63,548 nucleotides of DNA from Magnetococcales bacterium (GTDB lineage: Bacteria; Pseudomonadota; Magnetococcia; Magnetococcales; UBA8363), in NCBI GenBank assembly GCA_002753515.1, contig PEAK01000019.1, positions 1 to 63,548 on the forward strand, given 5' to 3'. Position 1 is the stretch's first letter. Each line of letters opens with the position of its first letter. The notes under the pieces are model-generated. The model was not told where the DNA came from and did no database searches. It saw nothing but the letters and a program-made list of their open reading frames with translations. The translations under genes and the position numbers were made by a program. Shown here piece by piece: positions 13,002-52,605 of this stretch.

Positions 13002-13288
13002 GCCACTCTCCATTGTCTAAACACCCAAGCGCAGGGAACCCGGGGATCGGAACAATCCCCAAACAACCGACCCACCCAAAATATTTATATAGCGTTACGC
13101 CGCCCTTCTCGCGTAGCGTACCTTGTTTCGCCCCGATTGGCAAACAGAACTTTTCCTGGCCGGTAGCATTTCGCTTTACAAGGGCGGCAGATAGCTTCAT
13201 CGACAGGCACATGGAAAAAGGAGTTTCCTACCCCGGACAAACCGGGTAACCTGGGGTCAGCAACACTACGATGACAGGGGAAAGCACC

Positions 13289-33576: not shown

Positions 33577-34091
33577 AAAATGATTCACCCTCTACACATC
33601 AAACCATCTCATTCACACGTATGGCATATCTCACCAAAATACTATAAATACCACATCCCGTTCCGTTTGAGTAGCTTCAATCTGATAAAAATAATCTCTC
33701 AACATCTTTTCAATAACAGGAGGAGACCATGGGAACGTTATTGGAATATTAATTTCAACTCATGGAAATCCATTCCCGATCGTGTTCTTAAGTCCCTTCG
33801 TCACGCCGCATTTCTTTGTTCGCACCATGACCCACGCAACGCTGGACGTCGCCAGATCGGGCACGAACAAGGCCCGCCGGATTGGTTGTTGCCGGGATTG
33901 ACGCCCTATCTTGAACAATTTCAATGGTACATATGCGGCCACTTGACGCGCTGGTAAGCAAACGTTTAGTATGTGCTTGTGTACAATTAAAACATGAATA
34001 GCAAGAAATATACGAGGAATTCCCGGTCCTACCCTGTCAAACGGTCACCTCAAAACGCCCCCTCGATTCCAACTGGATGGAGACGAAGAAA
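33577..34091. other. Intergenic region with a degenerate-looking reading frame
   Basis: The region separates divergent units and holds an open plus-strand frame to 33957 ending in a Trp-rich tail (EQFQWYICGHLTRW). It has no convincing start and no family I recognise, so it may be a gene remnant. A strong ribosome site (aggagga at 33718-33724) precedes an ATG at 33729 that opens only a 7-codon peptide. Possible promoter elements for the chemotaxis receptor are TTGACG (33943-33948) with TAGTAT (33967-33972) and TACAAT (33982-33987). Confidence 0.3.
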
Positions 34092-35675
34092 ATGGCTATC
34101 GCCACCATGCGCATCAAAACCAAGATCATCGCCTCTTTCTTATTGGTATTATCCGTATTCGGCGTGGGAGCGACCTATCAGATGCATGTCATGTCCAACC
34201 TGGGCAAACTCCAGGATGAGGGGGCGGAACGGTCCAAAAATGCCCTGGCCCTCCAAGAAATCCTCCAACGATTTGCACAGGTTTACAGCATCGCCGCAGA
34301 CGCCGCCATCAATCGCAACCTGGGGGAATCGCGAAAAGCCCTGGATGCGGCCTCCAAGCAAATGGAAAACGATTTGTCCCAGCTCAAAACGTTGGTGGAC
34401 ACCCCCGAGGAACGTGCCTGGGCAGAGGAAGCATCTCAACTCTATAGAAATTATGTTTCCCGCATCGCCGAAGAGTATTTCACCCTCGTGGCCAGTGTCA
34501 TCGCCGGGGAAAAGGGTGCCATGGAAAACTTATCCCGGGTGGACGGTGAATTGGATGGCTATCGGGATCGGGCCGGTAAAATCTTTGGAACCATCTCGGC
34601 ATCGATGGTGAAAGAAAATGAGGAAGCGGATGCCCGTTTTGACTCAATCCGTAAAGATGCCTCTTTCGTTGCCATGATCACCCTGCTGGTCAGCTTGGTG
34701 TTATCCATGGGACTGGCCCTGGGAACAGCCCGCATGATCATGAAACTTGTCGGCGGCGAACCGGCAGACATATCCGCATTGGCAACCCGGGTGGCCGCCG
34801 GCGACTTGACCGTGGCCTTGGACACATCACATGATATAACCGGCATCCATTTGGCCGTCCAAAACCTGGTGGTCAAACTGCGCGAAGTCATTACAGAAGT
34901 TTCGATGGCATCTGGACAGGTGGCATTGGGCTGTAACTCAATCTCGGAATCAGCTCAAAATTTGTCACAGGGGGCGGTCGAACAGGCGGCATCCCTGGAA
35001 ACCACCTCGGCAGCCGTTGACGCAATCACGGGAAGCTGCCAACTCAGTTCGGACAGCTCCGGTGCCACACAAAGTCTGGCCGTTCAAGCAGCCAAGGATG
35101 CGGCCAAGGGCGGGGACGCTGTCAATCAGGCTGTCCATGCCATGAAGGAAATTGCATCAAAAATCGGCATCATCGAGGAAATCGCCCGTCAAACCAACCT
35201 CTTGGCCCTCAATGCGGCTATCGAAGCGGCCCGGGCCGGGGAACACGGCAAAGGTTTCGCCGTCGTGGCCGCAGAAGTCAGAAAGCTTGCGGAACGCAGT
35301 CAGGTCGCAGCCGGGGAAATCAGTCATCTTTCCGCTTCCAGCGTCACCATATCCGAAGAGGCCGGTTCCATCATCTCCAAACTCGTTCCCGACATTCAAG
35401 ATACGGCGGATCGCATTCGGGGTATCACCGAATGCAGCAGGGACCAACGCGAAGGAATCAGCCAGATCAGCCAATCCATCCAGCAACTCGATAAAGTGAT
35501 CCAAAGCAATGCCAGTGCTTCCGAAGAAATGGCCGCAACCGCAGAGGAACTGAGTTCTCAGGCTGATTCAATGAACGATGCCATTTCCTACTTCAATGTT
35601 GGCCAACAAAAGAATTCCACCTCCCATCAACACGCCCCGATGTCGCGATCCTTAACTCTACATCCGCATCTGTAA
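34092..35675 (+). CDS. Methyl-accepting chemotaxis protein
   Basis: A 527-aa chemoreceptor. TM1 is at about 11-30, a helical periplasmic four-helix-bundle-like ligand domain runs to about 195, TM2 is at about 197-222, a HAMP-like segment follows, and the cytoplasmic signalling domain carries the conserved hairpin tip [41 protein letters not shown]. Its tip binds CheA and CheW. No cheA/cheW genes are nearby, so it is an orphan receptor feeding a distant array. The ATG at 34092 has GGAG 9 nt upstream; an ATG at 34077 is in frame but without a clear site. The ligand is unknown. Confidence 0.93.
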
Positions 35676-36006: not shown

Positions 36007-36882
36007 ATGATACCCTTCGCATTGATTTTTATCTTCACGTTGCTGCCATTGGCCCCCAGTGCCATTGCGGCGGAAACGTCACCCGGAGAGGCCATCTTCG
36101 CCACATCAGGCAACGGGGCCGATCCTTCGGGGCGCATAGCCCGATTGAAAGCGGCTGCCGAACGCCATCAGCAACGTCATCCCGAACATTGGGATGAGAC
36201 GGTCAAACAGTTGCAAACCCTCGAAGGAGTGGAAAAACTGGAACGGGCACACCAATTCATCAACAAACAGGTCACTTACAAAGACCTCCCCCAGTGGAAA
36301 AGCCCCCTGGAAACCTTCACCCAGGGGGGGAACTGCAAGGATTACGCAATCGCCAAGTTTCTACTCCTGGAGGAAGGGGGCTTACCCGCATCCGACATGC
36401 GTATGGTTTCCCTGGCCCCCACGGGAAGCCGCCCAGCCCATGTCATTCTGGTGGCACGCATCAACCAGAAACACTATGTATTGGACTCCGCAGGGCGTTC
36501 CCAATCGCAACATGTCGTCCCGTTGGACGCCTTCAACGAACGCAATCGCACCATTGTCTGGTCGGGCAGCACCAGTGGTTACTCCCTGGCGACCATTCGC
36601 GGTAGCGGCAGCGGCAGTGGTGAAATGATCATGACAACGTTGGGTCCCCGTCCCGCCCTGACCACCGGGGAACGGCTGTTGGACATTGCCGCCGAACTCC
36701 GTCTCGTCAGACCCGGAGAGGCCCCCCTGACCACCAAGGAACGACAAAAATTAGCGTTATTACGCGCCTACTTTCACGACCCATCCGAGGAAAACGCCAG
36801 CCATATCAAACCCGAAGAGGCCCGCAAGCTCAGCGCCATGCGTCAACGATTGCGAAAGATCTACGCCGCTGCCGGGTTGTGA
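36007..36882 (+). CDS. LapG-like periplasmic transglutaminase-like cysteine protease
   Basis: A 291-aa protein of the bacterial transglutaminase-like cysteine proteinase family (BTLCP), to which LapG belongs. The signal peptide is residues 1-21 (LAPSAIAA). The catalytic triad is visible as C110 (GGNCKDYA), H145 (RPAHVILVA) and D160 (YVLDSAG). LapG cleaves the retention module of giant adhesins in the periplasm and is held in check by LapD when c-di-GMP is high. The usual DCE motif, whose acidic residues bind calcium in characterised LapG, is NCK here. A helical C-terminal extension (about 200-291) is longer than in LapG. No strong ribosome site precedes the ATG at 36007, but a short upstream frame (ATG at 35984) ends across it. 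The gene ends 6 bp from the type I secretion operon on the other strand. Confidence 0.85.
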   Translation: MIPFALIFIFTLLPLAPSAIAAETSPGEAIFATSGNGADPSGRIARLKAAAERHQQRHPEHWDETVKQLQTLEGVEKLERAHQFINKQVTYKDLPQWKSPLETFTQGGNCKDYAIAKFLLLEEGGLPASDMRMVSLAPTGSRPAHVILVARINQKHYVLDSAGRSQSQHVVPLDAFNERNRTIVWSGSTSGYSLATIRGSGSGSGEMIMTTLGPRPALTTGERLLDIAAELRLVRPGEAPLTTKERQKLALLRAYFHDPSEENASHIKPEEARKLSAMRQRLRKIYAAAGL

Positions 36883-36888
36883 CCCCCC

Positions 36889-38184
36889 CTACCGCTCCCC
36901 GAGCGCCGAATGCATGGCATTGAACAAGGGCGATAAAATATATTCCAGGACACTGCGGCTACCCGTCAGGATGGAAACCTGCAACACCATCCCCGATACC
37001 AGATGATAGGTCTGCCCCCGGCTGGTGAAATAACTCTGCTCGGTTTCCACCCGCACCTTGTAAAACGGTGCCCCCTCCTTGGTGACAAAGGTGTCGGGAC
37101 TGACCTGGACCACCCGGCCCGCCAGATAGCCAAACCGGGACGCATCCGTCGAGGTCAGCCTGACCTTGGCAATCTGCCCCACCGCCACATAGCCGATATC
37201 GTGAATGGAGAGTTTGGCCTCCACCACCAGCTTGTCATCCTCCGGGACGATATCGACAATGGTTTCACCCGGTTTGACCACCCCGCCCAATGTGGCAACG
37301 TAAAGCATCTTCACCACCCCATGCACCGGGGATTTGACCTGGGTACGCCGTACATTATCGGCAAACTTACCCATGCGCGCCTGATATTCATTGAAATCCC
37401 GACGCGCCGTTTCCAATTGTTTGCCCACCTCTTCATTGTATTTATTGGTCACCAATTGTTGGTTCAGGTTGGCTTCCTTGACCATGGCCTCGGCACGATC
37501 CAATGCCGCCGTATCCTCTTCGATGCGGCTTTGCAACGCATTGTATTCTTTTAATAAATCAAGATGATTGTAGCGATTGTTGATGTCGCTCCTGAGCAAT
37601 TTGTCGCTGATATCCACCTGTTCCTTGACCAGGGTCAATTTTTTTTGCGCATGTCGCAACCGTGCCTGGATCTCCTGCAACTCTTTTTGGCGCTGGACAA
37701 TGGTTTGCGACTGACCTTCCAAGGTATTTTGCAAATTGAGACGGCGTGCCGCGAAAAGTTCTTCCGCCTGGCGCACCCGCTCGCCCAACACTTCCTTTTC
37801 CTCCGGGGTGAAGCGCAACGTTTTCCGCCCCTCCGCTTCGGCCTCCAGGCGGCGTATTTCCGCCTGCAACGCCAGGATACGGGATTGCAACTCACCCACA
37901 TCAGCACCCGAGGAGACCGATTCCAACGCCAGCAACGGTTGATCCCGCTCCACAGTCTGCCCCTCGTGGACAAAAATCTCCCGAACGATACCCCCCTCCA
38001 AATGTTGAATTTTTTTGATTTGGCTGGAGGGGATGACCTCCCCCTGGGTAATGCTCAGGACGTCCAGGGCGGACAAATGTCCCCAAATCAACAGAGCCGC
38101 CACAACTCCCACAACACCCAGAAGCATCGCATGCGCCCGAAACCGCCCCCCCGCATCCAATTCACCAAACGGCAATTCCTGCAT
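36889..38184 (-). CDS. HlyD-family periplasmic adaptor of a type I secretion system
   Basis: A 431-aa membrane-fusion protein. One N-terminal TM (about 17-40, MLLGVVGVVAALLIW), a lipoyl/barrel-sandwich half (GEVIPSSQIKKIQHLEGGIV), a long alpha-hairpin (about 90-290) and the C-terminal lipoyl and barrel region (VKSPVHGVVKMLYVATLGGV, IVPEDDKLVVEAKL) are all typical of HlyD/PrtE/LapC. It bridges the inner-membrane ABC exporter to the TolC-like channel. AAGGGGG lies 7 nt before the ATG, and the ABC gene ends 11 bp upstream. It is the last gene of the operon and would act with the genes at 38.2-52.6 kb. Confidence 0.95.
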   Translation of the reverse strand: MQELPFGELDAGGRFRAHAMLLGVVGVVAALLIWGHLSALDVLSITQGEVIPSSQIKKIQHLEGGIVREIFVHEGQTVERDQPLLALESVSSGADVGELQSRILALQAEIRRLEAEAEGRKTLRFTPEEKEVLGERVRQAEELFAARRLNLQNTLEGQSQTIVQRQKELQEIQARLRHAQKKLTLVKEQVDISDKLLRSDINNRYNHLDLLKEYNALQSRIEEDTAALDRAEAMVKEANLNQQLVTNKYNEEVGKQLETARRDFNEYQARMGKFADNVRRTQVKSPVHGVVKMLYVATLGGVVKPGETIVDIVPEDDKLVVEAKLSIHDIGYVAVGQIAKVRLTSTDASRFGYLAGRVVQVSPDTFVTKEGAPFYKVRVETEQSYFTSRGQTYHLVSGMVLQVSILTGSRSVLEYILSPLFNAMHSALGER

Positions 38185-38195
38185 GACACGCCCCC

Positions 38196-39854
38196 TTAAG
38201 ACGCTGGCTCGACAACCACTTGTTCCGTTTTAAGGGTGGCATCCAGATCGATCACCTGGTGCGCCAGCTTGGCCATGCCGGCATCGTGCGAGGCAATGAC
38301 CACCGTCCGCCCTTCGGCGACGAAACGGCGCATCATATCGACGATCAACAGCCGTCCTTCATTATCAACCCCCTCCAAAGGTTCATCCAGAATGACCAAA
38401 CGACCTTCCGCCGCCAAACCCCGCGCCAGGGCCAGGCGCCGCCGGATCCCCGGGGATAACCGTTGCCCCCCCTCCGTCAGCACCAGATCAAGGCCCTGCG
38501 GCGTTTCATTGACAAACCGCCGCAAACCAACCCGATCCACCAGATGGTTCACCGCCTCATCATCCATGTCGGGGCGCATGGTCAACAGATTATCCCGCAA
38601 ACTCGCATCCAAAAATAACGGTTCCTGGGGGACGTAGAGTATCTGCTGGTGCCACCAGTCGGGATGCAATTGATCCAGATTGTAGCCATCCACCAAAATA
38701 TGGCCTCGTTCCGGCAGCAAAACGCCAACCAATAAACGCAACAACGTCGTCTTGCCCGAACCATTTCGCCCGATAACCGCCAATACCTTACCCGGTTCCG
38801 CAGTCGCGGAAATCCCTGAAAATAGCGATCCCCTGGCCTCTGACCAGGAAAAAGCAACCTGTTTCAGTTCAACCTTGCCAACCCATTGCTGCAAAACCAC
38901 CCCATCCTGCTTCTCCAACGGCAAACGGCCAAATTGGGACAAAATTTTCAAACCTTGACGTGCTTTCGCAAGTTGGGAAACCAATTGCGCCCATTTCAGG
39001 AGGGGCGCCATGGCGCGTGCGGCAATAATGTTGGCACCAATCAACAAACCCGTATCCATCAAACCCATGTTGGCAAACTTGGCACCCACCGCAATCACCG
39101 CCACTCCCATCAAAGCGCCAATGCCTTGCGTGAGGGTTTGAATGCCTTCCTGACGATTGGTCAATCGGGTCTGGTCCCGGTGCAAACTTGCCTGTTCGGC
39201 CCACCAACGTTGCCGCAACAAGGGGGCACCGCGAAATGCCCGTACCGATTCGGCCACCGTCATCACCGATGTCGTCAACGCCCCCGCCCGCGCCGCTTTT
39301 TGCGCCAATTGCTGCGTCGGCTGCTGCAACCGCCCCTGGTGTACCAAAGTCAGCAAAAACACCACCGATAAAAACAGACTGGCGATGATGCCAATCCAAT
39401 GGTGGATCAGAAACAGGGCACCAACGAACAAGCCAACAAAAGGGAGATCCAGGAGGGCAACAACGGTAGCCGGGGTATAGGTTTTTTGCGCAGTGGCCAG
39501 ATGATTGACCAATTCCCGCTGCTCCCCGGGAGGGAGCTTGAGCAGTTCAACCAGTTTGACCCCGAGCAAACTGTTGAAAAATCCGGCAATCAACCGACCG
39601 ATGGGCGCATGGACAACACCACCCGCCAAGCTGCGACGCAACTGTCGCAACACCCATTCCGCAATGACCGCCACAATCACACCCACCGTCAGCGTCACCA
39701 GGGTGGCATCCACACCGCTGGACACATAACGATTGAGAACCTGCATGACATACAGCGACGATGCCAACCCCAGCAGGTTGATCAACAAGGAAGCAAGCAA
39801 CAATTCGATAGCCAGTATCGGCCTGGAGGCCAAAAACCGGAAGATCTCCCTCAT
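38196..39854 (-). CDS. Type I secretion ABC transporter (permease-ATPase, no C39-like domain)
   Basis: A 552-aa exporter half-transporter: six predicted TM helices in residues 1-310, then the ATPase with Walker A (VIGRNGSGKTTLLRLL), Q-loop (YVPQEPLFLD), a variant signature (LSPGIRRR instead of LSGGQ), Walker B (LVILDEP) and H-loop (VIASHD). It lacks the N-terminal C39-like domain found in LapB/HlyB, so it is closer to the PrtD type. The ATG at 39854 overlaps the TolC-gene stop (ATGA). An in-frame GTG at 39881 is possible but would overlap further. It exports the giant RTX-type protein encoded upstream in the same operon and perhaps the 4,247-aa protein. Confidence 0.93.
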   Translation of the reverse strand: MREIFRFLASRPILAIELLLASLLINLLGLASSLYVMQVLNRYVSSGVDATLVTLTVGVIVAVIAEWVLRQLRRSLAGGVVHAPIGRLIAGFFNSLLGVKLVELLKLPPGEQRELVNHLATAQKTYTPATVVALLDLPFVGLFVGALFLIHHWIGIIASLFLSVVFLLTLVHQGRLQQPTQQLAQKAARAGALTTSVMTVAESVRAFRGAPLLRQRWWAEQASLHRDQTRLTNRQEGIQTLTQGIGALMGVAVIAVGAKFANMGLMDTGLLIGANIIAARAMAPLLKWAQLVSQLAKARQGLKILSQFGRLPLEKQDGVVLQQWVGKVELKQVAFSWSEARGSLFSGISATAEPGKVLAVIGRNGSGKTTLLRLLVGVLLPERGHILVDGYNLDQLHPDWWHQQILYVPQEPLFLDASLRDNLLTMRPDMDDEAVNHLVDRVGLRRFVNETPQGLDLVLTEGGQRLSPGIRRRLALARGLAAEGRLVILDEPLEGVDNEGRLLIVDMMRRFVAEGRTVVIASHDAGMAKLAHQVIDLDATLKTEQVVVEPAS

Positions 39855-41800
39855 GGCACCGATTCGACCCGTGTCTCCCACTTCATGGAAGTACCTTGAG
39901 CAACTGTCGTTGCCGGGGTACCGCTATCAGGCTCTGGAACCCACAATGCCTCCGGTGGAATACCACGGTCTGATGTCGTTTCCACCTTGTTGGCATGAAC
40001 CGCTTGTGGCTTTGGTACAGCCCGGGAAATATTTTCAGCTTGCGGCATCATTTCATCCCGGGGGGCAACGGTTTCAACCTTCGGGGTGGATTCAACCTTC
40101 GGGGTGGTCTCCACCTTCGGAGTGGATTCAACCTTCGGAGTGGCCTCAACCTTCGGGGTGGATTCAACCTTCGGGGTGGTTTCAACCTTCGAAGTGGTTT
40201 CAGCCTTCGGAGTGGCCTCAACCTTCGGGGCGCTCACCGGTTTCAAGGCATCCCCAGCCTTTGGAAATGTCTCAACCTTCGGAAGGATATCCTCTTTGAG
40301 TGAGGATTCAGACCGAACCGCTTTCGCCTTCGCAGCTTTGTCAGACTTGGCACTCTTCCCCGTCTTCACACTCTTATCCGATGCGACCTCTTTGTCACCC
40401 TTGGTACCCTTTTCCTCCTTGGAAACCTTTTCAACCTTGGGGGCATCCGATGCCGTGGCCAAACCTTTGTGACTCCCGGAAGCAGAGTGCGTGGATGAAG
40501 GGGATGACTCAGACATTTCCTTGATGGTCAGGTGTCCCACTTCCTTCATCAGGGTGTAGGCGGCAATGGAAATGTCCGCCTCCGCCGCTGCCGCATCGCT
40601 ACGGGAATTGATCAGCGCCGTTTCCCCATTGAGCACATCCAGCAGGGACCGCTTGCCCATCTGACGCTCTTGCCTTGCCACCTCCAAAAACCGTTCCGCC
40701 AGCTCCGCCTGATTGCGCAACATGGCTGCATTGGCTTTGGCCGTTTCCAGGTTGCGCCAAGCATTGCTCACCTGCTCCCGAATCTGTACCAGGGAATCTT
40801 CCAGGCGCATACGCGCTGCCTCCTCATCCCGTTCCGCCGCTTCCAGGGCCGTCTTGCCGGTCATCCCCAGATTCAACTGATGCGTCAGTTCCACCTTGGC
40901 CAGGATTTCCCGCTGATAACCTTCGATGGCGGCTACCGAATCCTTGAACTTTTGTTCCACACTGGCATTGATCACCGGAAAGAATCGTTCCGCTTTCAAT
41001 GCTTTTTGCTTATCCGCCAAAACCTCGGCCAGGAATGCCAAACTTTTGACCTGGGGATTGTCCTCTTTCGCCTTCGCTACCGCTTCGTCCAAATCCTTGG
41101 GCAGCAAATGGCTGGGAATGCGCAAGTCCTCGGCCAGGGTGACACCCTGGATTTCCCTCTTGAATACCGCCTGAACCCGGTTGTTCACCTGGGCCAGCGC
41201 CCCCTCGGCCTGGATACGCCGTGCCTGGGCACCCGCCAGTTGTGTCTTGGCCTGCAACACATCCGTGGTATACCCCTGGCCCGCCTGCACCTTGGTGTTT
41301 TCGATCTCGGTCTGCTTTAAAATATTGGCTTCGGAGCGTTTGGCATAATCCAAAGCGGTTTCCACCCGCTTCAGATTGAGATAGGCGGTGATCGCATCCA
41401 GGAGAACCGTCTGCCGCGCCGTCTCCAAGGCTTGTTCCAGTTGATCGTACTGCAATTTCATGATGCGGACATCGGCATTGGACTTGCCGAAATCCCACAG
41501 TTTCTGCGACAACTTGATGTCCAATTCCCGGGGAAACATGTCGGTATTGGCATCCAACGGTTTGTTATCCTGACGTTCCCGGCCATAGTTGGCCGTTGTC
41601 TGCAAGTTTGGATACCAGGCGTTACCAAATACCTCCTTGATGCGATACCCGGCAGCCGCCAAATCCCGTTCCGCTGCCTTAACCTTTTCGTTACCCTCCA
41701 GAACCTTGGTCAGCACATCCGGCAAGGATTCCTCAGCATATACCCCGGAAACAAACGAAAATATAGCCAACACACTCCCAAGACAATGCAACGCCTTCAT
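39851..41800 (-). CDS. TolC-family outer-membrane channel with a ~220-aa Lys-rich repetitive tail
   Basis: A 649-aa protein. It has a signal peptide (CLGSVLAIFSFVSGVYA) and a full TolC/OEP core to about residue 428 (NAWYPNLQTTANYG; two long helical hairpin sets; TLMKEVGHL), normal for LapE/TolC. An unusual tail follows: a Ser/Lys-rich stretch (TGKSAKSDKAAKAKA), then nine 6-residue repeats of the KVESTP type and a Pro-rich end. In TolC the C-terminus faces the periplasm, so the tail should lie there. GAGG lies 5 nt before the ATG, and the giant gene ends 32 bp upstream. It provides the outer-membrane exit for the operon's exporter. The tail could bind peptidoglycan or hold a retained adhesin; both ideas are inference. 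Confidence 0.92.
   Translation of the reverse strand: MKALHCLGSVLAIFSFVSGVYAEESLPDVLTKVLEGNEKVKAAERDLAAAGYRIKEVFGNAWYPNLQTTANYGRERQDNKPLDANTDMFPRELDIKLSQKLWDFGKSNADVRIMKLQYDQLEQALETARQTVLLDAITAYLNLKRVETALDYAKRSEANILKQTEIENTKVQAGQGYTTDVLQAKTQLAGAQARRIQAEGALAQVNNRVQAVFKREIQGVTLAEDLRIPSHLLPKDLDEAVAKAKEDNPQVKSLAFLAEVLADKQKALKAERFFPVINASVEQKFKDSVAAIEGYQREILAKVELTHQLNLGMTGKTALEAAERDEEAARMRLEDSLVQIREQVSNAWRNLETAKANAAMLRNQAELAERFLEVARQERQMGKRSLLDVLNGETALINSRSDAAAAEADISIAAYTLMKEVGHLTIKEMSESSPSSTHSASGSHKGLATASDAPKVEKVSKEEKGTKGDKEVASDKSVKTGKSAKSDKAAKAKAVRSESSLKEDILPKVETFPKAGDALKPVSAPKVEATPKAETTSKVETTPKVESTPKVEATPKVESTPKVETTPKVESTPKVETVAPRDEMMPQAENISRAVPKPQAVHANKVETTSDRGIPPEALWVPEPDSGTPATTVAQGTSMKWETRVESVP
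40064..40225 (-). repeat. Nine 18-bp tandem repeats in the TolC-like gene
   Basis: The 18-bp unit (consensus ttcaaccttcggggtgga on the plus strand) is repeated nine times with few changes and encodes K-V-E-[S/T/A]-T-P. Such repeats change copy number by slippage without shifting frame, so tail length may vary between strains. Confidence 0.9.
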
Positions 41801-41832
41801 AGAAACCTCATGCCAAGATGGACAGATACCCT

Positions 41833-44800
41833 TTAGCCGCCCAACGCATGAACCGGATGGTGCAAGACGTCGTCAACGGGGGGCGCCCCGTCGAGCCAAT
41901 GGGTTGGAACATTCCCAACAGTGTCATGATCCACCTGGGAATGATCCTGTGTCGCATTCACACCAGGGTCCAGGAAAGCCATGTGATCACCATGCGTCCC
42001 AGACTTCATCAGGGAAGCCAAAGACACCACTCCCTGACCCTGTGTATCATAGCGGCCCCATGCATCCGGTCCACTCACAGAACTTTGGTCAGGATGCAAA
42101 AAGGAAGCCAGAGCTTGGTGCAGAGAAGGCCCACCCGCGACCTCCTCAGGGGATGCCCCCACCCCGCCGCCTAATTGATTGCCATGAAATAAGCCTTCAG
42201 ACGCTTGTTGTCCAGTGTTGCTCTTTGCAACGGGATAAATTCCCTGACCCGGCTGTCCCGATTCAACAACCCCATGGGAAGAGAACAAATCAGTGTAATT
42301 CGCTTCACGACCATGCAAAAGTTGACCAAATGCATCGCCCGTATGGGTAGCCCCATCCCGACCACCCGACTGCAAAGCCACCTCCGACAACTGACCATCA
42401 TGGCCATCGGTGTAGGTGAAATGCCCATTGGTCAACACTCGGTTCGACCCCTGCCAATGACCATCGGTCGTGGTGTCCAACTGAATGGAGCCAATTCCTT
42501 TCCCTGCCAGTGTCGACAATTCGTCCGCTTCGGAAATGCCATTGTGACTGGCATCTTGCCAGAGCAGCAAGTCCTTGAATACCGCATCATTGGCATTGAT
42601 CAGATGATCCTGGTTGGCATCAAATTTGGCCAATGCCTCCATCCCCGAATGAACACCCTTGAACATACGCTCCGAGAACAATTCGCTGGCATCGTTGATC
42701 ACGCCATCATGGTTCGTATCCAAAGACAAAAAGGCATCGCTCGGGTTCACCCAACCGGTGGCCTGCGGTTTTCCCGTCAGGTTCATGTCAAATTGGACCC
42801 CGTGATCCCGATCCGTCAAACCAATGCCATCGCCGTTCAAGTCCAATACCACAGGATCCACGCCAACAGAGGTGTTGATGGTAGCGTCCACCTGAACGGT
42901 AATTCCCCCTTTTTGATAGACATTATAATCGTGGCCATCAAACGGGACGGGAACGGAATTGGTCTGGGTCCAACCCAAATCAGAAAGGAACAGCGAATCC
43001 ATGGCATCGCCCTGAACACGCAGCATGTGTCCGGACCCGATCATTTGTTTGATCTCGATGCTCGTCATCTCCAGGGCATGGCCGAAATCGCCATATTGCA
43101 GGTCGATGACCTCAATATTATGGATCCGACCAGCCAGAGTGGGCGTCAGGGTCAGATTCAAGTTGCCATCGAGTCGCAGGGCATCCATGCCACCACCGCC
43201 GTCAACTCTTTGGAAGGTTGCATCGGCAATGGCCAGTACATCGTTACCCGCCCCGCCAATCAGCACGTCCGCCCCACCATTGCCCTCCAGGACATCATCA
43301 CTCGCTCCACCGTGCAGAATTTCAGCATCCGTACTCCCGCCCATGGTTTGAGCTGCCGCACCTCCCGTATTCCACTGGTTGCCAAACACAACGGTACTGG
43401 AACCGAACATTGTCCCATCAACCCCGGTTTCTTGCGCACCGAGGATCACATCATCCAAACCATCATGGTTGACATCGCCGGCTCCGCTCACCGCAATATG
43501 ACCCACGGAACCGGTTATCTGGAAACCGGCAGCAGGGTCCAAGTTGGCCAGGTCCACCTCGGCATTGAATCCCGAAGCCTTACCAAACAAAACAGTCGCC
43601 GTTCCCGAATTGGTTCCAACGATCAAGTCGGCATAGCCATCCCCATTCATGTCACCAGCCGAACTCACCGACACTCCTGTCTGATCGTAAGCCGCCGCCC
43701 CTTTGATGGCAAACCCATTGCTGCCAGCCAAGGTGGAAACATCCAACACCCCCGCAGACGTCACCCCGGCGCCAAAAACCACATAACTCTTTCCAGCGCC
43801 ATTGGGACCAGCCCCATCAGCGCCAATGATCAAGTCATCATAGCCATCACCGTTGACATCGCCGGCGCTCTTCACCGAAACACCAAAGCCATCACCGGCC
43901 ACATTGCTGCTCAGCTTGAAACCATTGCTACCGACCAAGGCAGAGACATCCAGATTGGTGGCGGCACCAAAGCCCGCCCCCTGACCAAACACCACATACG
44001 CCGCCCCGTTACCAGGGTTGTCACTCGATGTATCGGGCGCACCAACGATCAAGTCACCAATGCCATCGCCATTGAAGTCCCCAGCCCGATTCACCGAGAA
44101 CCCCAACATTTGGCCCATCGTCATACCCGATACGCGCAAACCGGTTGATGCGTCCAGACTTCCCAGACCGATCGGCATATTCTGCGTTGTCAGGGACGCA
44201 TACAGCGTTTGCGAGCCATACACCACATATGCCACCCCGGAATTGGCAACGCTACCGGTCGCATAGGGGGCACCGACCAACAGATCATCGATCCCATCGC
44301 CATTGACATCCCCAGCAGAACTGACCGAAGACCCGCTGTAATCGTCAGTGTTAACACCCGCTATGCGAAATCCAGTACCAGCACCCAGATTGAAAAGTGA
44401 CTGTGCCGAGGATTGTAGCGCCCCACTGCCAAACACAACAGAGGTTTCTCCAGACTTCAAATAATCAATCCCAGTGCTATGAGGGGAACCGATCACAACG
44501 TCATCATAACCATCACCGTTGAAATCGCCGGCGCTACCGACCGACGAACCCGCATGATCACCGTTGGAAACGCCATCCAATTGGAATCGATCATTGTTAC
44601 TCTGCATGGAAAGATCCAAATGGGAAGGAAATCCCATGGTGTTACCGTAGATCACATAAGCGGCCCCGATCTGGGAACTATTGGCACCGACACCAGGAGC
44701 ACCAATGAGGAAATCATCAATCCCATCATGGTTGAAATCGCCAGCCGCACTCACGGCGTAACCGGTCTGGTCGCCCGCAAGTGCCCCATCCACCACAAAG

Positions 44801-47800
44801 CCGGCAGTGGCAACCAGACTGGAAACCGCAACGTTGTGTTCAACCTTCATCGCTACCGAAACAGGATTCGTCGACGATGCCCCCTGGTCGTCCATGGCAA
44901 CGACATGCAATGCCCCGATATTGCTCCCCAGGACATTGGTAGGAGCTGTCCAATAGGCATTGTGTGTGGCATCCACAACATTATTGTAATAGGGTGACCA
45001 ATAATACGCATCCTGGGCACTGGTGCCAATTTTGAGGGTACCCTGATCGACTGCCGTGACCACGAATCCGGTCACTGTCCCATCCATATCCATCGCGTTG
45101 GAGTAGGACAGCATATCCTGCAAAGTGATGGTCGCCTCGGCCCCATCGCCAATCGTACCAACCGGTGCCGAAAAGTTGGTCAACGTAGGCACATCGTTAA
45201 CCGACGTGACATCCACGGTTGCCAGTTGCGGTGTCGCAGACTGTCCACCCAGATTGTCCAATGCCACAGCGTTGAAAGCGGATAGTGACCCATTGGCATT
45301 CAGATCCCCGGTCCAATAAGCGTTGTGCGTGGCATCCACCGTATCGTTCACACCTGCGACCCAAGTAGTCGCCGTTCCAGCACTCCCGCCAATCATCAGC
45401 TGACCACTTGCAACACTCTTGACCACAAACCCGGTCACTTGACCGTCCAAATCTGCGGCGTCCGAATGATTCAGGAGTCCCGACAGCGTGATGGTGGCCT
45501 GCATATCTTCATTGACCGTTGTTACTGCGCTTGGGAACCCGGTCAGTGTCGGCAAAAAGTTGTCGGCAGTCGTGACCTGAATCGTGGAATCCACCAGCAG
45601 CGTCATGGAACCCTGCGTGTATTCGTTGTAGGTGTGACCGTCGGCGTCGTTGATAGTGGCGGGCGTCCCCCAACCCGTTCCAATCGCGAGGGAGTCACTG
45701 CTATCACCCCAAACCCGCAACTCACCCCCTGCATCGGGGAGATGACCGACCATTTCAGGCGAAAGTTTCAATACATGCGAACCCGAACCCGCCATCATAT
45801 CGATGATATCAATCCCCGACAGGCGATAGCCCGATACCGCCGATATATCGAAAAAGGAAAGGCCAACCTTGAGGGTATCGATACCGGCACCCCCATCAAT
45901 CATGCTGAAACTGGTGTCAGACATTGTGAACGCATCGTTGCCATCACCACCGAACAGCATGTCGCTACCCCAGGCGGTCAACGTATCGTTGCCCCCACCC
46001 GCCATCACGATATCCTTGTCACCGCTACCCACATACTCATCATTTCCCGAGGTACCCTGATAGGTCACAGACCGTGTCACCAAATTCAAGCCAAACTCTG
46101 TGAACAAGGGCTCCAAAACCATCCCGTTGCCCAGATCCACACCCTGAACATGCCCCGCCCCACCCAGGGATTGACCACTGCTGACAACCTGGAACTGATC
46201 GCCAACCGTTGGAGTGAATCCATTGATCAGATCCACCGACACCGTCCCACCCCACACCACTTTGCCCGGGATAACGAGATGGTCATATTGGGTATTGGAT
46301 ACAGTCCCCCCCAACTCCAGATGCACCACTGCCGTGGGATCCAAAACCAGGCTCGTCCCATAATGCGCGACCGTCAACCGACCCGCGTTCCCGACACCAC
46401 CCGGTTCCAGGGTCCCCTCCGTACCCGTGACATCCACCCAAACCGTTTCGGTGGACGATGCCGTCGAACCGTTTTCCGCCTCGGTCCTCGTTGCCGTCAC
46501 AGTCAGGAAAAAATTCTCGCTGGAATCTTGTGGCGGGGTTAGCGTCAAACCACTCATTTGTGCCGCCGTCAGCAACCAAGTACCATTGCCTTGATCGATT
46601 CCTTGAGACAACGTAACCGTTGCCGGCACCCCGTACAGGGTGAATGTCGAGCTTTCAGAACCATCGGTATCGCTCGACGATGCCGTGAAACTCAAGGGGA
46701 TGGACGAGGTAGTCACCTCCCCACCCGCGTTGCGGATATTGTCCACATATGCGACCGAATCGACGCTCGTATCCCGCACATTGACCACACCCAACCCGAT
46801 GGTATACATCCCACTTGTCGGTGCCGTATAGTCAAACGTGTGGTAGCCCGAGTTGCCATAATTGCCAATCTGGGACACATCGGACAACCTTTGGAACGTT
46901 GCCGTGGCATCACCCGGAACCCAAATGGAGACAAAGGCGAAATCATTGTAGGGCAAATAATCGTTGGTCTTGAAAAGCCAATCCAGATGAACCGCCCCAC
47001 CCGCCAAAAGGGCCATATTCATTTTTATGGCCGAACCATTGGTCACGGTGCCGTCATTTGCAGTCAACCCACCTGAAGCCAAGCCCAAAAAGGTTTCAAT
47101 CTCGGACCTGCTGACACCCATATTGCTGAGCTGGACTTGCTGGGTGCCCTGGGTGGGCGTAGCGTAACCCGTGGATCCAACAACTTGAACGTTACCCAGG
47201 GTGGAAGTGGTCCCAATCCCTGTTTCAAAGCCCTGAAAGGTCAGGCTCGTCTCCAAAGACGGGAGAATCACGGGGGTATCGGCAACCGCATTCACCTCCA
47301 CATGAACCGTTCCATACCCCAAAGGCGAACCATAATACATCTCCGACCCCGAAGGCATGACAACCACGTTCAAATCAAAATCATTGGCACTGTTGCTTGG
47401 CGGGGTAATGGTCAGTCCACTGAGAATCTGCTGCGGTGTCAAGGTCCAGGATCCATACCCATTGTTCGTACCTGCGGAAAGGGTGGCTCCCGTGGGCATC
47501 CCGGAGATCATCACGTAAACATCCCCCGGTACATTGCCAGCCAAAGACGAAAGTTGCGTCTGAATCGGCGAAAAGGAAATGGGAGTGTCCTCATTGCCGG
47601 TAATGGTAAACACCAGTTGGGTCGGGGGCGTTACCGGACCCGTCGTATTGCTGGTCACGCTTTCCGCAGTGCCATGTCCATCGACGTAGGATGCCACGAC
47701 ACTGATGGTTTGACCAAGCAGGGGATCGGACAACAACAGGGTATCCCCGGTGGCACCTTCAATGGCCACGCCACCCGCCATCCATTGGTAACCAACCGTC

Positions 47801-50800
47801 CCCATGCCATCAGCATCCATCAGCGTGTTGGTCGCAGTGAGTGTTTGCCCCTCGGCAACCGTACCCTGAATGATCACCGACCCCATGGGGGCATCATTGA
47901 CATTGACCACCGTGTCGGTCGCCGCACTGCTGACCTGCCCCGGTTGACCAAAGCCGTCCGAATAAATCGCCGTCACCGTAATCTTTTTGCCCACCTCATT
48001 CTCGGTCAAAAGCAGGTGATCCCCCGTGACCCCGACGATGGTGCTGCCATCCGCCTGCCATTGGTAGCTGAAGTTCATCGGCCCCGTCTCATCGGGATCG
48101 ACAAGCGTGTTGATGACGCTCAACGTCGCATTTTGGATGGCATTACCCGCGATGGTCAGCGAACCAACCGGTATGTCATTCACCGGGGTCACCTCCAGCG
48201 TCACCGACACCGGAGTTGGCGACAGGGTGCCATTGTTATCTTGCGCCACCACGGAAAGCGCCGTGAAAATACCATGGGCATCGGGGGCTGCGGACCAATA
48301 GGCATTGTGCATCGCATCCACCGTATCGTTCGACCCCATCATCCAGGGCGTTGCCGTCCCCGGGGACGTGCCAATCAACAATTGACCCGTTGGCACACCC
48401 TGGACCACAAAACCTTGGATCGTACCATCCGCATCCATCGCATCGCCATGCAGCAACAAATCGGAAAAAGTAATCGTCGCCTGGGTATCCTCGGGAATCG
48501 TCGCAACCGACCCGGTAAAGCCAGTCAGCGTTGGCACATCATTGACCGATGTCACTTCCAAAGAGACCGATACCGGAGTCGGGGACACAGCGCCATTATT
48601 ATCCCGGGCCACCACATTCAACGCATTGAAAAGACCATGCGCACCGGGGGCCGCATTCCAATAGGCATTCTGTGTCATATCGATCGTATCATTCGATCCG
48701 GACATCCAGGGCGTTGCCGTCTCCGGGGTACCACCAATCCACAATGTACCCGTTGGTACACCCTTGACCACAAAACCTTGGATCGTCCCATCCGTATCCT
48801 TCGCATCGCCATGCAGCAACAAATCCGAAAAAGTGATCGTCGCCCGGGTATCCTCCGCAACCGTCACCACCGACCCGGTAAAGCCAGTCAGCGTTGGCAC
48901 ATCATTGACCGGTGTGACATCCAGCGACACCATCACCGGAATCGACGACACAGCGCCCGCATCATCCCGCGCCACCACGCTTAACGCCTGGAACGTACCG
49001 TGAACATTGGGGGATCCCATCCAATAGGCGCTGTGCGTGACATCCACCGTATCATTCACACCAACCATCCACGGTGTCGCCGTCTCCGGGGTACCACCAA
49101 TCAACAATGTGCCCGTTGGTACACCCTTGACGACAAAACCTTGGATCGTCCCATCCACATCTTTCGCATCACCATGCAACAACAAATCGTCAAAAGTGAT
49201 CGTCGCCTGGGTATCCTCCGCAACCGTCACCACCGACCCGTTGAAAGACGTCAGCACCGGCCCTTGATTAACCGGCGTTACTTCCGTCACATCCAGGGAC
49301 ACCATCACCGGGGTCTGCGACACTCCACCCATGTCATCCCGCGCCACAACGCTCAATGCCTGGAACGTACCGTGAACACTGGGGGATCCGTTCCAATAGG
49401 CGCTGTGCATGGCATCCACGACATCGTTCGACCCCACCATCCAAGGCGATGCCGTCTCCGGACTGGTGCCAATCATCAACTGGCCCATCGGCACACCCTT
49501 GACCACAAAACCTTGGATCGTCCCATCCACATCCTTCGCATCACTTTGCAGCAACAGATCGTCAAAAGTGATCGTCGCCTGGGTATTCCCCGGAATCGTC
49601 GCCACCGACCCGGTAAACGATGTCAGAACCGGCACATCATTAACCGGTGTCACGGCAACTTTCACCGGAACTGGAACCGCGGACTCCAAACCACCACTAT
49701 CCCGAACCACGACCGCAAACGCATCCAACAGACCATTGGCATTGAGCGCCCCAGTCCAGTAAGCATGATGCGTTGCATCCAGGATATCGTTCGTCCCGGA
49801 AACCCACGGTGTTGCTGTCTCCGGGGAGGTTCCGATCAGTAACTGACCAGAAGTCACCGAACGCACCACAACGGTATCAACAAGACTATCCACATCCGCC
49901 GCATTGCCGTGCGCCAGCAAATCAGCCAGGGTGATCGTCGCCGTGGTATCCTCGCCAACCGTGGCAACAGGCCCGGTTACAGACGTCAACGTTGGGGCCT
50001 CGTTGACATTCAATACCTTGAAAGTGAACAACGACGAATACGGATTGAGCGGCAAGTTGTCCGAAGTTGCGGTAATATCAACCTTGAGCGTTGCCTTTTG
50101 CTCATAATCCACCACCGCATTGGCATTCAAATACAAATCACTTCCCTGAATCTGGAACAATGACGCATCGTCACCGCCGGTCACCGCGAAATGGACCACA
50201 TTGGGAGATGCACCGGTGACCGTCAGTGAGGCAATCTTCAATGGACCATGCAACGTATCCGGATTTTCGTTCAACTGATCCACCGAAGAAGCCATGGCAG
50301 TAATAGGCGTGTAAGCGGGTTGACTCACCAAAAAGTGACTGATCGCCTTTTCAATGCTCACCATTTGTTCATGACCCGCACTCTTGACGATCTGGGTCAC
50401 GACCGGGCTCGCCGCAAACGCCTCCTTGGAAACCGAGAAATCAATCGACTGCGTCTTCGCTTCCTGTCGCACGGTTTCGCTGATGGAAATACCGTTGCTG
50501 GGATCGCCATCGGCATCCAAACTTTGCAAAAATCTTAGAATATTGACCGTGGTATCCGAATTCACACCACCACCCAGTTCTGCCGGGGTCACAACCTCCT
50601 GTGCCTGACTCTCCCCCAGAACCACATTGCCCAAACTGAAGATGACCTTTTCACCTTGAAGGAATTGGAACGAACCATCCGCATTCGTCAAACCGGAAAA
50701 AGTGGCCGTTTTATACGTAACACCCCCAACCGCAGAGTCCACAAAAACACCCTTGCGGATCAGCTCAGGATTAATGGTCGGTGTGCTGGTCGTCGGCGTC

Positions 50801-52605
50801 TCATTCGATGCCACCTGCACCGGTGGCGTTGTTTGCGTCGGTTGTGACGTTTGCGTCGGTTGTGACGTTTGCGTCGGTTGCTGGGTCGTTGCCTGGGTCG
50901 TTTGCGATGGTGACGTACTCGGATTGACTACAACCTGAGGAGGCGGAATATATTCGTTCGTCGTCGGAGTCACCGGGGTATTGACAACTGTCTTGATATA
51001 ACTGGAAACTTTCAAAATATCTTTGGCGATTGAATCCTGCAAGACATTGTTAGAACTGGCATTCTTCTGATCATTATAGACCGGGGTCACAACAGGTGTG
51101 ATGACATTGGAAACAGGGAGATTGTTAGCAGTAGCGAGCAGATTGCTGGTCGGATACAGAACCGCCTTGATATCCTGTATATGAAGATCAGCCGGAGGGG
51201 CCACAGGTTGCAGGACCGCCTGTTGATCCGCGACAGGGGCAGCCGCAGGAGATAATGGGTTGCCTTTCAGCAAAGCCGCGTCGACACCAGTCTTGCCCAC
51301 AGAAGCGGGATCGGGGGGGACCAAAGACAAGGCCGAATCCTTTGCCGAACCAGCATCACCTGCTGTTTTGGCCGCCGCAGGATCGGGAGGCACCAGAGAC
51401 ATGGCCGAATCCTTTGCCGAACCAGCATCAGCGGCCTTATCCGCCTTGTCGCCCGTTCCATCCTTGGCATGAGCATCATCCTTGCCATCCTTGTTGCCAT
51501 GCGCGTCACCATCCGCCGCCTTGTTGGACGCATGTTCATCAGACGACTGGGCATCGTGTCCATCCTTCTTCGCCCCATCCTTATCGTGCTGCTCCCCCTC
51601 CTTCGGAGCATTGGTACCGTCTTTGTTGGTGTGATCGGGATCATTGGCCTTCTTGAGGATTTCCACCTCCTTGGCCTTGTTGATCGATTGATTGGAAACC
51701 TTGTTTTCGAAGTGTTGGATCAATTGTTCCGGGGCCTGAAAGATGGCCTGCGGCGCCCCACCCCCAAAACGAACCGCCGTCGCCATGCCGGGTTGCGTCA
51801 GTGTGACCATACCCTTGCCCAAAATATCGGAAATCTCCAACGTACCGGTTTTGTGAACCACCGTGGTACCACCGGTCGGGTCCACCTCACCCATCAACTC
51901 GCTGCCACGAATACCGATCGTCGCCGTTGGCGTCTTGATGGTCGAGTGGCGCCCCTCGTGAACATGACCGATCTCACCACTGGCATAACGAAACGCCCCG
52001 GCCAAAACCGTTGCGGTGAACTGCCCCTTGCCTTCGGTCGGGTTGAACACATATTCGTTGATGAGGGCGCGTGATGTTTCGGCAACCTGAAAAACCGTGC
52101 CATCCTTGAAAACCAGTTTGGCCAAACCACCTTTGGCGGTACTGATTTGATCACCCACCTGAATGGGATCGCCATCCTTCAAGGGACGCACCACCCCATC
52201 CTTGCCGCGGGCCTCCACAGAGCCCACCACCGACTCAATTTTTCCGACGACCTGAATTTCCCCTCCGGTACCACTCGCAGCTTCCGTTGGCCCCGCCAAC
52301 ATCACTGGCATCTGGTCGATCGCGATCAGCGCCTTGACGGTGTCGAACGTGACTCCCGACCCATTGGCCAGGACCAGCGGTGGTGGATGCGGCAAGGAAA
52401 AATAACCTTCGACACGTACCATTTCCCCGGTCGGGCTGGTAATGATCAAATCCTGCCCTTCTCGTGCATACCCCCCCTCGAGAAGAAACGAGGCATCCGG
52501 CAATTCAACCGAGGGCTGGTCAGCGGCGGCATGAATCGTGATCATACCGCTCTTGGCTGCGACTTGGCTGTTTTTGGGTTCGGAATGTGGCAAAGGATGG
52601 AGCAT
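41833..52605 (-). CDS. Giant FecR/cadherin/FG-GAP/RTX surface protein (3,590 aa), type I secretion substrate
   Basis: No Sec signal. N-terminus: a short beta domain (SFLLEGGYAREGQDLIITSP), then a FecR-like domain (about 116-285, GKIESVVGSVEARGKDG...TATIGIRGSE) like the retention module of LapA-type adhesins. A Lys/Asp/His-rich linker and Pro/Thr/Gln repeats follow (about 310-600), then a VDSAVGGVTYKT module (619-745), a cadherin-like repeat, five and later two more ~108-aa repeats, two Ig-like domains, an RTX block near 2188, seven FG-GAP blades (about 2600-3060; GDFNGDGYDDVVIG), a second RTX block (GGAGNDVL) near 3100, and EF-hand-like loops (DLNGDGIGL, DTNHDGVIN, DANQDHLIN) near 3255-3370. 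AGGAT lies about 8 nt before the ATG. It is the first gene of the operon with its own TolC, ABC and HlyD. No clean TAAG-type site is seen; PAAAK and PAAAP lie at 409-455. Confidence 0.93.
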   Translation of the reverse strand: MLHPLPHSEPKNSQVAAKSGMITIHAAADQPSVELPDASFLLEGGYAREGQDLIITSPTGEMVRVEGYFSLPHPPPLVLANGSGVTFDTVKALIAIDQMPVMLAGPTEAASGTGGEIQVVGKIESVVGSVEARGKDGVVRPLKDGDPIQVGDQISTAKGGLAKLVFKDGTVFQVAETSRALINEYVFNPTEGKGQFTATVLAGAFRYASGEIGHVHEGRHSTIKTPTATIGIRGSELMGEVDPTGGTTVVHKTGTLEISDILGKGMVTLTQPGMATAVRFGGGAPQAIFQAPEQLIQHFENKVSNQSINKAKEVEILKKANDPDHTNKDGTNAPKEGEQHDKDGAKKDGHDAQSSDEHASNKAADGDAHGNKDGKDDAHAKDGTGDKADKAADAGSAKDSAMSLVPPDPAAAKTAGDAGSAKDSALSLVPPDPASVGKTGVDAALLKGNPLSPAAAPVADQQAVLQPVAPPADLHIQDIKAVLYPTSNLLATANNLPVSNVITPVVTPVYNDQKNASSNNVLQDSIAKDILKVSSYIKTVVNTPVTPTTNEYIPPPQVVVNPSTSPSQTTQATTQQPTQTSQPTQTSQPTQTTPPVQVASNETPTTSTPTINPELIRKGVFVDSAVGGVTYKTATFSGLTNADGSFQFLQGEKVIFSLGNVVLGESQAQEVVTPAELGGGVNSDTTVNILRFLQSLDADGDPSNGISISETVRQEAKTQSIDFSVSKEAFAASPVVTQIVKSAGHEQMVSIEKAISHFLVSQPAYTPITAMASSVDQLNENPDTLHGPLKIASLTVTGASPNVVHFAVTGGDDASLFQIQGSDLYLNANAVVDYEQKATLKVDITATSDNLPLNPYSSLFTFKVLNVNEAPTLTSVTGPVATVGEDTTATITLADLLAHGNAADVDSLVDTVVVRSVTSGQLLIGTSPETATPWVSGTNDILDATHHAYWTGALNANGLLDAFAVVVRDSGGLESAVPVPVKVAVTPVNDVPVLTSFTGSVATIPGNTQATITFDDLLLQSDAKDVDGTIQGFVVKGVPMGQLMIGTSPETASPWMVGSNDVVDAMHSAYWNGSPSVHGTFQALSVVARDDMGGVSQTPVMVSLDVTEVTPVNQGPVLTSFNGSVVTVAEDTQATITFDDLLLHGDAKDVDGTIQGFVVKGVPTGTLLIGGTPETATPWMVGVNDTVDVTHSAYWMGSPNVHGTFQALSVVARDDAGAVSSIPVMVSLDVTPVNDVPTLTGFTGSVVTVAEDTRATITFSDLLLHGDAKDTDGTIQGFVVKGVPTGTLWIGGTPETATPWMSGSNDTIDMTQNAYWNAAPGAHGLFNALNVVARDNNGAVSPTPVSVSLEVTSVNDVPTLTGFTGSVATIPEDTQATITFSDLLLHGDAMDADGTIQGFVVQGVPTGQLLIGTSPGTATPWMMGSNDTVDAMHNAYWSAAPDAHGIFTALSVVAQDNNGTLSPTPVSVTLEVTPVNDIPVGSLTIAGNAIQNATLSVINTLVDPDETGPMNFSYQWQADGSTIVGVTGDHLLLTENEVGKKITVTAIYSDGFGQPGQVSSAATDTVVNVNDAPMGSVIIQGTVAEGQTLTATNTLMDADGMGTVGYQWMAGGVAIEGATGDTLLLSDPLLGQTISVVASYVDGHGTAESVTSNTTGPVTPPTQLVFTITGNEDTPISFSPIQTQLSSLAGNVPGDVYVMISGMPTGATLSAGTNNGYGSWTLTPQQILSGLTITPPSNSANDFDLNVVVMPSGSEMYYGSPLGYGTVHVEVNAVADTPVILPSLETSLTFQGFETGIGTTSTLGNVQVVGSTGYATPTQGTQQVQLSNMGVSRSEIETFLGLASGGLTANDGTVTNGSAIKMNMALLAGGAVHLDWLFKTNDYLPYNDFAFVSIWVPGDATATFQRLSDVSQIGNYGNSGYHTFDYTAPTSGMYTIGLGVVNVRDTSVDSVAYVDNIRNAGGEVTTSSIPLSFTASSSDTDGSESSTFTLYGVPATVTLSQGIDQGNGTWLLTAAQMSGLTLTPPQDSSENFFLTVTATRTEAENGSTASSTETVWVDVTGTEGTLEPGGVGNAGRLTVAHYGTSLVLDPTAVVHLELGGTVSNTQYDHLVIPGKVVWGGTVSVDLINGFTPTVGDQFQVVSSGQSLGGAGHVQGVDLGNGMVLEPLFTEFGLNLVTRSVTYQGTSGNDEYVGSGDKDIVMAGGGNDTLTAWGSDMLFGGDGNDAFTMSDTSFSMIDGGAGIDTLKVGLSFFDISAVSGYRLSGIDIIDMMAGSGSHVLKLSPEMVGHLPDAGGELRVWGDSSDSLAIGTGWGTPATINDADGHTYNEYTQGSMTLLVDSTIQVTTADNFLPTLTGFPSAVTTVNEDMQATITLSGLLNHSDAADLDGQVTGFVVKSVASGQLMIGGSAGTATTWVAGVNDTVDATHNAYWTGDLNANGSLSAFNAVALDNLGGQSATPQLATVDVTSVNDVPTLTNFSAPVGTIGDGAEATITLQDMLSYSNAMDMDGTVTGFVVTAVDQGTLKIGTSAQDAYYWSPYYNNVVDATHNAYWTAPTNVLGSNIGALHVVAMDDQGASSTNPVSVAMKVEHNVAVSSLVATAGFVVDGALAGDQTGYAVSAAGDFNHDGIDDFLIGAPGVGANSSQIGAAYVIYGNTMGFPSHLDLSMQSNNDRFQLDGVSNGDHAGSSVGSAGDFNGDGYDDVVIGSPHSTGIDYLKSGETSVVFGSGALQSSAQSLFNLGAGTGFRIAGVNTDDYSGSSVSSAGDVNGDGIDDLLVGAPYATGSVANSGVAYVVYGSQTLYASLTTQNMPIGLGSLDASTGLRVSGMTMGQMLGFSVNRAGDFNGDGIGDLIVGAPDTSSDNPGNGAAYVVFGQGAGFGAATNLDVSALVGSNGFKLSSNVAGDGFGVSVKSAGDVNGDGYDDLIIGADGAGPNGAGKSYVVFGAGVTSAGVLDVSTLAGSNGFAIKGAAAYDQTGVSVSSAGDMNGDGYADLIVGTNSGTATVLFGKASGFNAEVDLANLDPAAGFQITGSVGHIAVSGAGDVNHDGLDDVILGAQETGVDGTMFGSSTVVFGNQWNTGGAAAQTMGGSTDAEILHGGASDDVLEGNGGADVLIGGAGNDVLAIADATFQRVDGGGGMDALRLDGNLNLTLTPTLAGRIHNIEVIDLQYGDFGHALEMTSIEIKQMIGSGHMLRVQGDAMDSLFLSDLGWTQTNSVPVPFDGHDYNVYQKGGITVQVDATINTSVGVDPVVLDLNGDGIGLTDRDHGVQFDMNLTGKPQATGWVNPSDAFLSLDTNHDGVINDASELFSERMFKGVHSGMEALAKFDANQDHLINANDAVFKDLLLWQDASHNGISEADELSTLAGKGIGSIQLDTTTDGHWQGSNRVLTNGHFTYTDGHDGQLSEVALQSGGRDGATHTGDAFGQLLHGREANYTDLFSSHGVVESGQPGQGIYPVAKSNTGQQASEGLFHGNQLGGGVGASPEEVAGGPSLHQALASFLHPDQSSVSGPDAWGRYDTQGQGVVSLASLMKSGTHGDHMAFLDPGVNATQDHSQVDHDTVGNVPTHWLDGAPPVDDVLHHPVHALGG
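50826..50885 (-). repeat. Three ~18-bp repeats in the giant gene's linker
   Basis: The unit gtttgcgtcggttgtgac is repeated three times and encodes T-S-Q-P-T-Q, part of a Pro/Thr/Gln linker between the FecR-like region and the adhesive domains. Confidence 0.8.

Follow-up and report, generated by a model that had tools for sequence, protein, structure and literature searches.

In other bacteria LapG is the enzyme that releases adhesins, and LapB has a C39-like domain. The locus studied here resembles the Lap system of Pseudomonas fluorescens (LapA, LapG, LapD, LapEBC) in that a giant protein of type I secretion carries a retention-like region at its N-terminus and a BTLCP protease with a C-H-D triad is encoded beside it. 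It differs from Lap in that no LapD was found, the exporter has no C39-like domain, the protease belongs to another clade and has its calcium ligands replaced, and the giant carries no [T/A/P]AAG behind its FecR region.

The Dvh system of Desulfovibrio vulgaris (DvhA, DvhG, DvhD) likewise has a BTLCP near an adhesin operon outside the Gammaproteobacteria (PMC13090378, accessible part). However, DvhG retains the calcium site and its partner DvhD is a dCache-PAS-HD-GYP protein, and neither is present in the locus described here. According to the same part of that source, the cleavage consensus consists of a DP motif and [T/A/P]AAG and follows the retention domain. It also reports that the DvhG double variant D316A/E318A, changed at the residues beside the Cys, is inactive, and that adhesins from other loci can be substrates of LapG-like proteases.

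HvyA of the alphaproteobacterium Caulobacter crescentus is a BTLCP that limits capsulation, a distant LapG relative which is itself controlled through its abundance during the cell cycle (PMC4241560, accessible part). As an exported BTLCP whose task is not LapA cleavage it is comparable to our protease. The comparison is by its description: unlike our protease, HvyA is encoded in a locus for capsule export and has retained the calcium residues predicted for it. Concerning the exporters, those without an N-terminal extra domain were defined as a third type, and giants with a retention-like N-terminus were put in a fourth, BTLCP-linked class (PMC8861453, accessible part). The ABC transporter analysed here has the architecture of the third type, without a C39 or C39-like domain, but serves a giant whose N-terminus is retention-like. 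Among the papers searched, none names LapG together with Magnetococcus, and the two that combine Magnetococcales with adhesin deal, to judge from their titles, with other subjects.

Composition and arrangement of the locus

The analysed stretch of 63,548 bp, here referred to as the window, is contig 46 of a Magnetococcales genome of 4.33 Mb which is 97% complete. All five genes of the original prediction were found in place (Table 1). The predicted 4-bp overlap or short gaps correspond to 32 bp between the giant and TolC genes, a 4-bp overlap of the TolC stop with the ATG of the ABC gene at 39854 (the frame itself opens at a GTG at 39881) and 11 bp between the ABC and HlyD genes. The protease gene is convergent with the operon and ends 6 bp from the HlyD stop, which confirms the tail-to-tail arrangement in the window. 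The 15.7 kb of the original prediction is the length of the whole operon; the giant alone measures 10.8 kb.

Table 1. Features of the analysed locus, with positions in the window
Feature	Position	Strand	Remarks
BTLCP protease	36007-36882	+	PF06035 (Peptidase_C93), 36.2 bits; gathering cut-off 27
N109-C110-K111 of protease	36331-36339	+	catalytic Cys between Asn and Lys; Asp and Glu in LapG/DvhG
H145 of triad	36439-36441	+	
D160 of triad	36484-36486	+	
C-terminal domain of protease	36661-36879	+	common to 19 clade members
HlyD-type adaptor	36889-38184	-	TIGR01843, 387 bits
Type I secretion ABC transporter	38196-39854	-	552 aa counted from ATG; without N-terminal C39-like domain
TolC-type outer-membrane protein	39851-41800	-	long Lys/Pro/Glu-rich C-terminal tail
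Giant surface protein	41833-52605	-	3590 aa; weak BapA-prefix-like start (under cut-off), FecR/retention-like, cadherin-like, FG-GAP, RTX
Linker behind FecR region	50656-51738	-	aa 290-650; without [T/A/P]AAG; DP-AAA-K-TAG at aa 408-416
FecR domain of giant	51856-52152	-	aa 152-250
Retention-module-like stretch of giant	52033-52248	-	aa 120-191; NF033682 37.7 bits, curated cut-off 50

With ABC, HlyD and TolC encoded together with an RTX-type substrate, the operon has the characteristics of type I secretion. FecR, cadherin-like and FG-GAP domains as well as one RTX stretch were assigned to the giant by Pfam. The Pfam scan of the ABC transporter found no C39 domain, in line with the exporter predicted to lack a C39-like domain, and its membrane part begins close to the first residues. 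The best NCBIfam model was LssB (348 bits, under the model cut-off). PF03412 (C39) scored over its cut-off in the exporters of all three Lap/Dvh loci of the order. In the TolC-type protein, Lys/Pro/Glu-rich repeats make up the C-terminal tail (39851-40513).

A second giant of 4251 aa with Big_5 and SWM repeats is encoded at 258-13013 of the window. A methyl-accepting chemotaxis gene (34077-35675) separates the protease from its next neighbour. The genes flanking this position adjoin each other in the sister MAG, and among the matches listed there was none to the chemotaxis gene.

The protease and its relatives

The protease matched the LapG-family structures 4u65 and 4fgo, begins with a signal-peptide-like stretch as judged by eye, and carries the triad C110, H145 and D160. 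This C-H-D triad was kept in 19/19 clade members. The residues around the Cys are N-C-K in the window and sister proteases, compared with D-C-E in 3/3 Lap/Dvh-type proteins of the order and in 10/10 top matches from outside it. Within the clade of 19, D-C-E occurred eleven times, V-C-V six times and N-C-K twice. Between window and sister genome the protease was 94% identical with a dN/dS of 0.185. AlphaFold2 modelling of the protease (window + L002) reached a mean pLDDT of 40.

A profile of the 19 relatives recognised full-length members in 19 of the 48 Magnetococcales genomes. When 398 Pseudomonadota genomes were searched with up to five candidates scored per genome, the full-length ones among the matches listed were the 19 from Magnetococcales, and scores dropped from 387 bits (lowest clade member) to 78 bits (best other, core only). 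The C-terminal domain was not spanned by those of the listed matches that came from outside the order. In a tree of the protease core the 19 proteins formed one group (ultrafast bootstrap 100) against 13 LapG-type and other BTLCPs, and the window protease did not group with the LapG-type proteins; 10 of 133 matching genomes from outside the order were used for this tree and for the motif count. PF06035 was present in 22 genomes, the 22nd of which (G039) contributed a short frame of 147 aa that belongs to neither group. On sequence grounds the protease is, among the matches listed, a lineage-specific BTLCP of Magnetococcales with a predicted C-terminal domain of its own.

Conservation of the arrangement

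The sister MAG (JADGCN010000005.1, G046) keeps the arrangement including the 6-bp gap. Together with the dN/dS of the protease this argues against a chance neighbourhood. At the 17 other clade loci, several of which have flanks cut by short contigs, no match to the giant above 25 bits was found in the examined flanks. An ABC and HlyD pair lies 4-8 kb from the protease in one of these 17 (G035), in G041 the protease has an ABC transporter gene (88 bits) as its direct neighbour, and the loci of G034 and G018 gave weak matches to ABC or TolC. Among the scanned neighbours, which were some of those of the other protease copies, no common partner was recognised; the flagellin, TPR, histidine kinase, PP2C and glycyl-tRNA synthetase genes located beside protease copies were rejected as such.

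Exporter homologues with 63-72% identity were present in G047, G037, G028 and G032, and in G047, G037 and G032 the exporter adjoins a related giant (3' part). The stretches examined at these four exporter loci contained no protease match. Genome-wide, BTLCPs were absent from G047 (74% complete), G028 (98%) and G032 (88%), and the single BTLCP of G037 lies on a different contig from the exporter operon. Across whole genomes the exporter showed no link with the protease clade: at E 1e-60 it was present in 11 of the 19 genomes with a clade member and in 20 of the 29 others (p 0.54; this count and that for the N-terminus below were taken by hand from the search tables). The synteny proposed as a check was thus kept in the sister MAG, but neither the giant at the 17 other clade loci nor the protease at the homologous operons was found in the stretches examined.

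The N-terminus of the giant as a possible substrate

The match of the giant to NF033682 lies below the curated cut-off (Table 1), and the model also gives weak matches in unrelated control genomes. None of its 11 matches in G046, G047, G011 and G005 reached the cut-off. In a motif scan of the giant the strict [T/A/P]AAG was absent from the N-terminal part behind the FecR region, and the only copy was located at aa 3024, within the FG-GAP stretch. Where the window linker has DP-AAA-K-TAG, that of the sister genome has DP-AVA-K-AAG. The strict motif occurred within 450 aa in 2 of 43 loci related to the giant's N-terminus, a set which includes the window's own locus, one genome's locus twice and some tails that are short or FecR-like only. 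As for Lap adhesins of the order as motif controls, the frame before the G011:C321 operon leaves its contig, and contig G005:C353 begins at the exporter frame.

At E 1e-3 the giant's N-terminus matched in 48/48 Magnetococcales genomes, 26 of which had no PF06035 match. Strong matches (E 1e-50, a line picked after the table was seen) were counted by hand in 15 of 22 BTLCP holders and in 19 of the 26 others. The N-terminus hence does not go with the protease, because matches were similar in both groups (p 0.76). The first 300 aa were 98% identical between window and sister protein with a dN/dS of 0.056. A single-sequence AlphaFold2 model of the first 310 aa was poor (mean pLDDT 40).

Further proteins of this kind were observed. 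A second giant in the window's genome (G000:C59:38955-39824) has an N-terminus 68% identical to that of the window giant, and its examined flanks had no match to exporter genes. A 19,352-aa open frame with a similar N-terminus is present in G039 (C1:384650-385492, L086), and three more such frames comprise 9,909, 11,592 and 11,725 aa.

LapD- and DvhD-type receptors

No LapD-type gene was found among the 21 window proteins scanned, which agrees with the original prediction, and the genome-wide homology search proposed there recognised no LapD partner either. PF16448 had no match in the window's genome, whereas the same search gave E 9e-42 in G011. Likewise, a query with the N-terminus of the DvhD-like protein of G005 found nothing here and reached 7e-147 in G011. 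Since 14 named control genomes had no PF16448 match, G011 served as the main control for this domain. PF16448 matches occurred in nine Magnetococcales genomes besides G011; the three examined were histidine kinases and not LapD. The window's genome has 14 EAL-domain matches, which indicate a c-di-GMP network; no LapD was recognised among them, with four N-termini cut off in the examined loci. Two of the EAL proteins (L180, L181) have paired N-terminal hydrophobic stretches and intact GGDEF and EAL motifs.

Loci of the known kinds exist in the same order. In G011:C321 (L035) a LapG-type protease is followed by a LapD with PF16448, GGDEF and EAL, and a C39-bearing exporter precedes the protease. 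In G005:C353 a LapG-type protease stands beside a dCache-PAS-HD protein like DvhD (by its scanned domains), again with a C39-bearing exporter, and G011:C73 (L034) has the same combination. The N-terminal part of the DvhD-like protein of G011 is 57% identical to that of G005. G011 hence combines in one genome a Lap-type locus that includes LapD with a second locus encoding a LapG-type protease next to a DvhD-like protein.

Assignment of the locus

Of the proposed Lap-type retention and release, the giant, the C39-less exporter, the BTLCP protease and the missing recognisable LapD stood, but the Lap logic itself is weak. The protease lies outside the LapG branch, carries other residues in place of the calcium ligands and has relatives that are located elsewhere; homologous operons have no protease, the canonical consensus is missing and no relative of LapD or DvhD was found. 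The scattered position of the clade relatives does not by itself exclude adhesin substrates, since LapG-like proteases can cut adhesins encoded elsewhere. The locus falls outside the Lap and Dvh systems and works at most partly like Lap.

We regard it as somewhat more probable than not that the operon encodes a giant adhesin of the ordinary type I-secreted kind and that the lineage-specific BTLCP next to it need not have the giant as its substrate, and rank this above a release that is independent of calcium and LapD. The giant would be exported C-terminus first, and its FecR/retention-like N-terminus, judging from its domains, may remain in the periplasm as a plug. Such retention through the FecR region would keep the giant surface-bound, with no protease dedicated to its release. 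The BTLCP would act in the periplasm, lacking the usual calcium ligands, and would have come to adjoin the operon in one species pair. By analogy with HvyA it might act on an envelope target, not necessarily the window adhesin, and would not be controlled by LapD or DvhD. Several points speak against this explanation: the sister preserves the 6-bp spacing, the protease is under purifying selection, an ABC transporter gene adjoins the protease in G041 also, the flanks of several clade loci are cut by short contigs, and the BTLCP absence rests on incomplete genomes (G047 and G032).

A Lap-like release with other parts is possible, though clearly less probable. Here the protease would cut the giant in the linker behind FecR and free it from TolC without calcium, LapD or DvhD. 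The conserved tail-to-tail neighbourhood, the purifying selection on the protease and the triad in all clade members are consistent with it, and the linker motifs of window and sister loosely resemble DP ... [T/A/P]AAG (PMC13090378, accessible part). It is opposed by the absence of the strict consensus from the giant's N-terminal part, by the homologous operons that run without a protease and by the inactivity of DvhG changed at both Cys-flanking residues (same source), where the window protease has N and K. In its full form, a BTLCP specific to Magnetococcales, with Lys where the calcium site used to be, would cut a giant exported without C39 at a non-canonical Ala-rich site, needing neither calcium nor a c-di-GMP receptor; this we consider unlikely.

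That the locus is a true Lap system with a missed or diverged LapD-type receptor appears very improbable. The c-di-GMP network, the truncated N-termini, the hydrophobic pairs of L180 and L181 (though with intact GGDEF and EAL motifs) and a genome completeness that would allow for a missing gene could speak for it, but both receptor searches were empty here and strongly positive in G011, the protease is not a member of the LapG branch and a C39-like domain is missing from the exporter. A dead protease remnant, as the replaced calcium-site residues might suggest, is hardly credible given the intact triad, the open frame and the dN/dS value against the sister genome.

A BTLCP gene adjoining a giant adhesin is thus insufficient evidence of a Lap system. 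Within one order, a Lap-type, a Dvh-type and a third arrangement, that of the window, can be separated by sequence tests on calcium residues, protease clade, receptor, C39-like domain and cleavage consensus. In the Magnetococcales BTLCP clade one species pair carries N-C-K at the calcium site and six genomes carry V-C-V; through this clade one can ask directly about calcium-free proteolysis and other substrates. The V-C-V proteases (L045, L046, L048, L050, L051 and L052) all belong to one genus, and a related gene lies upstream of all six; in L050, where it was scanned, this gene encodes a flagellin.
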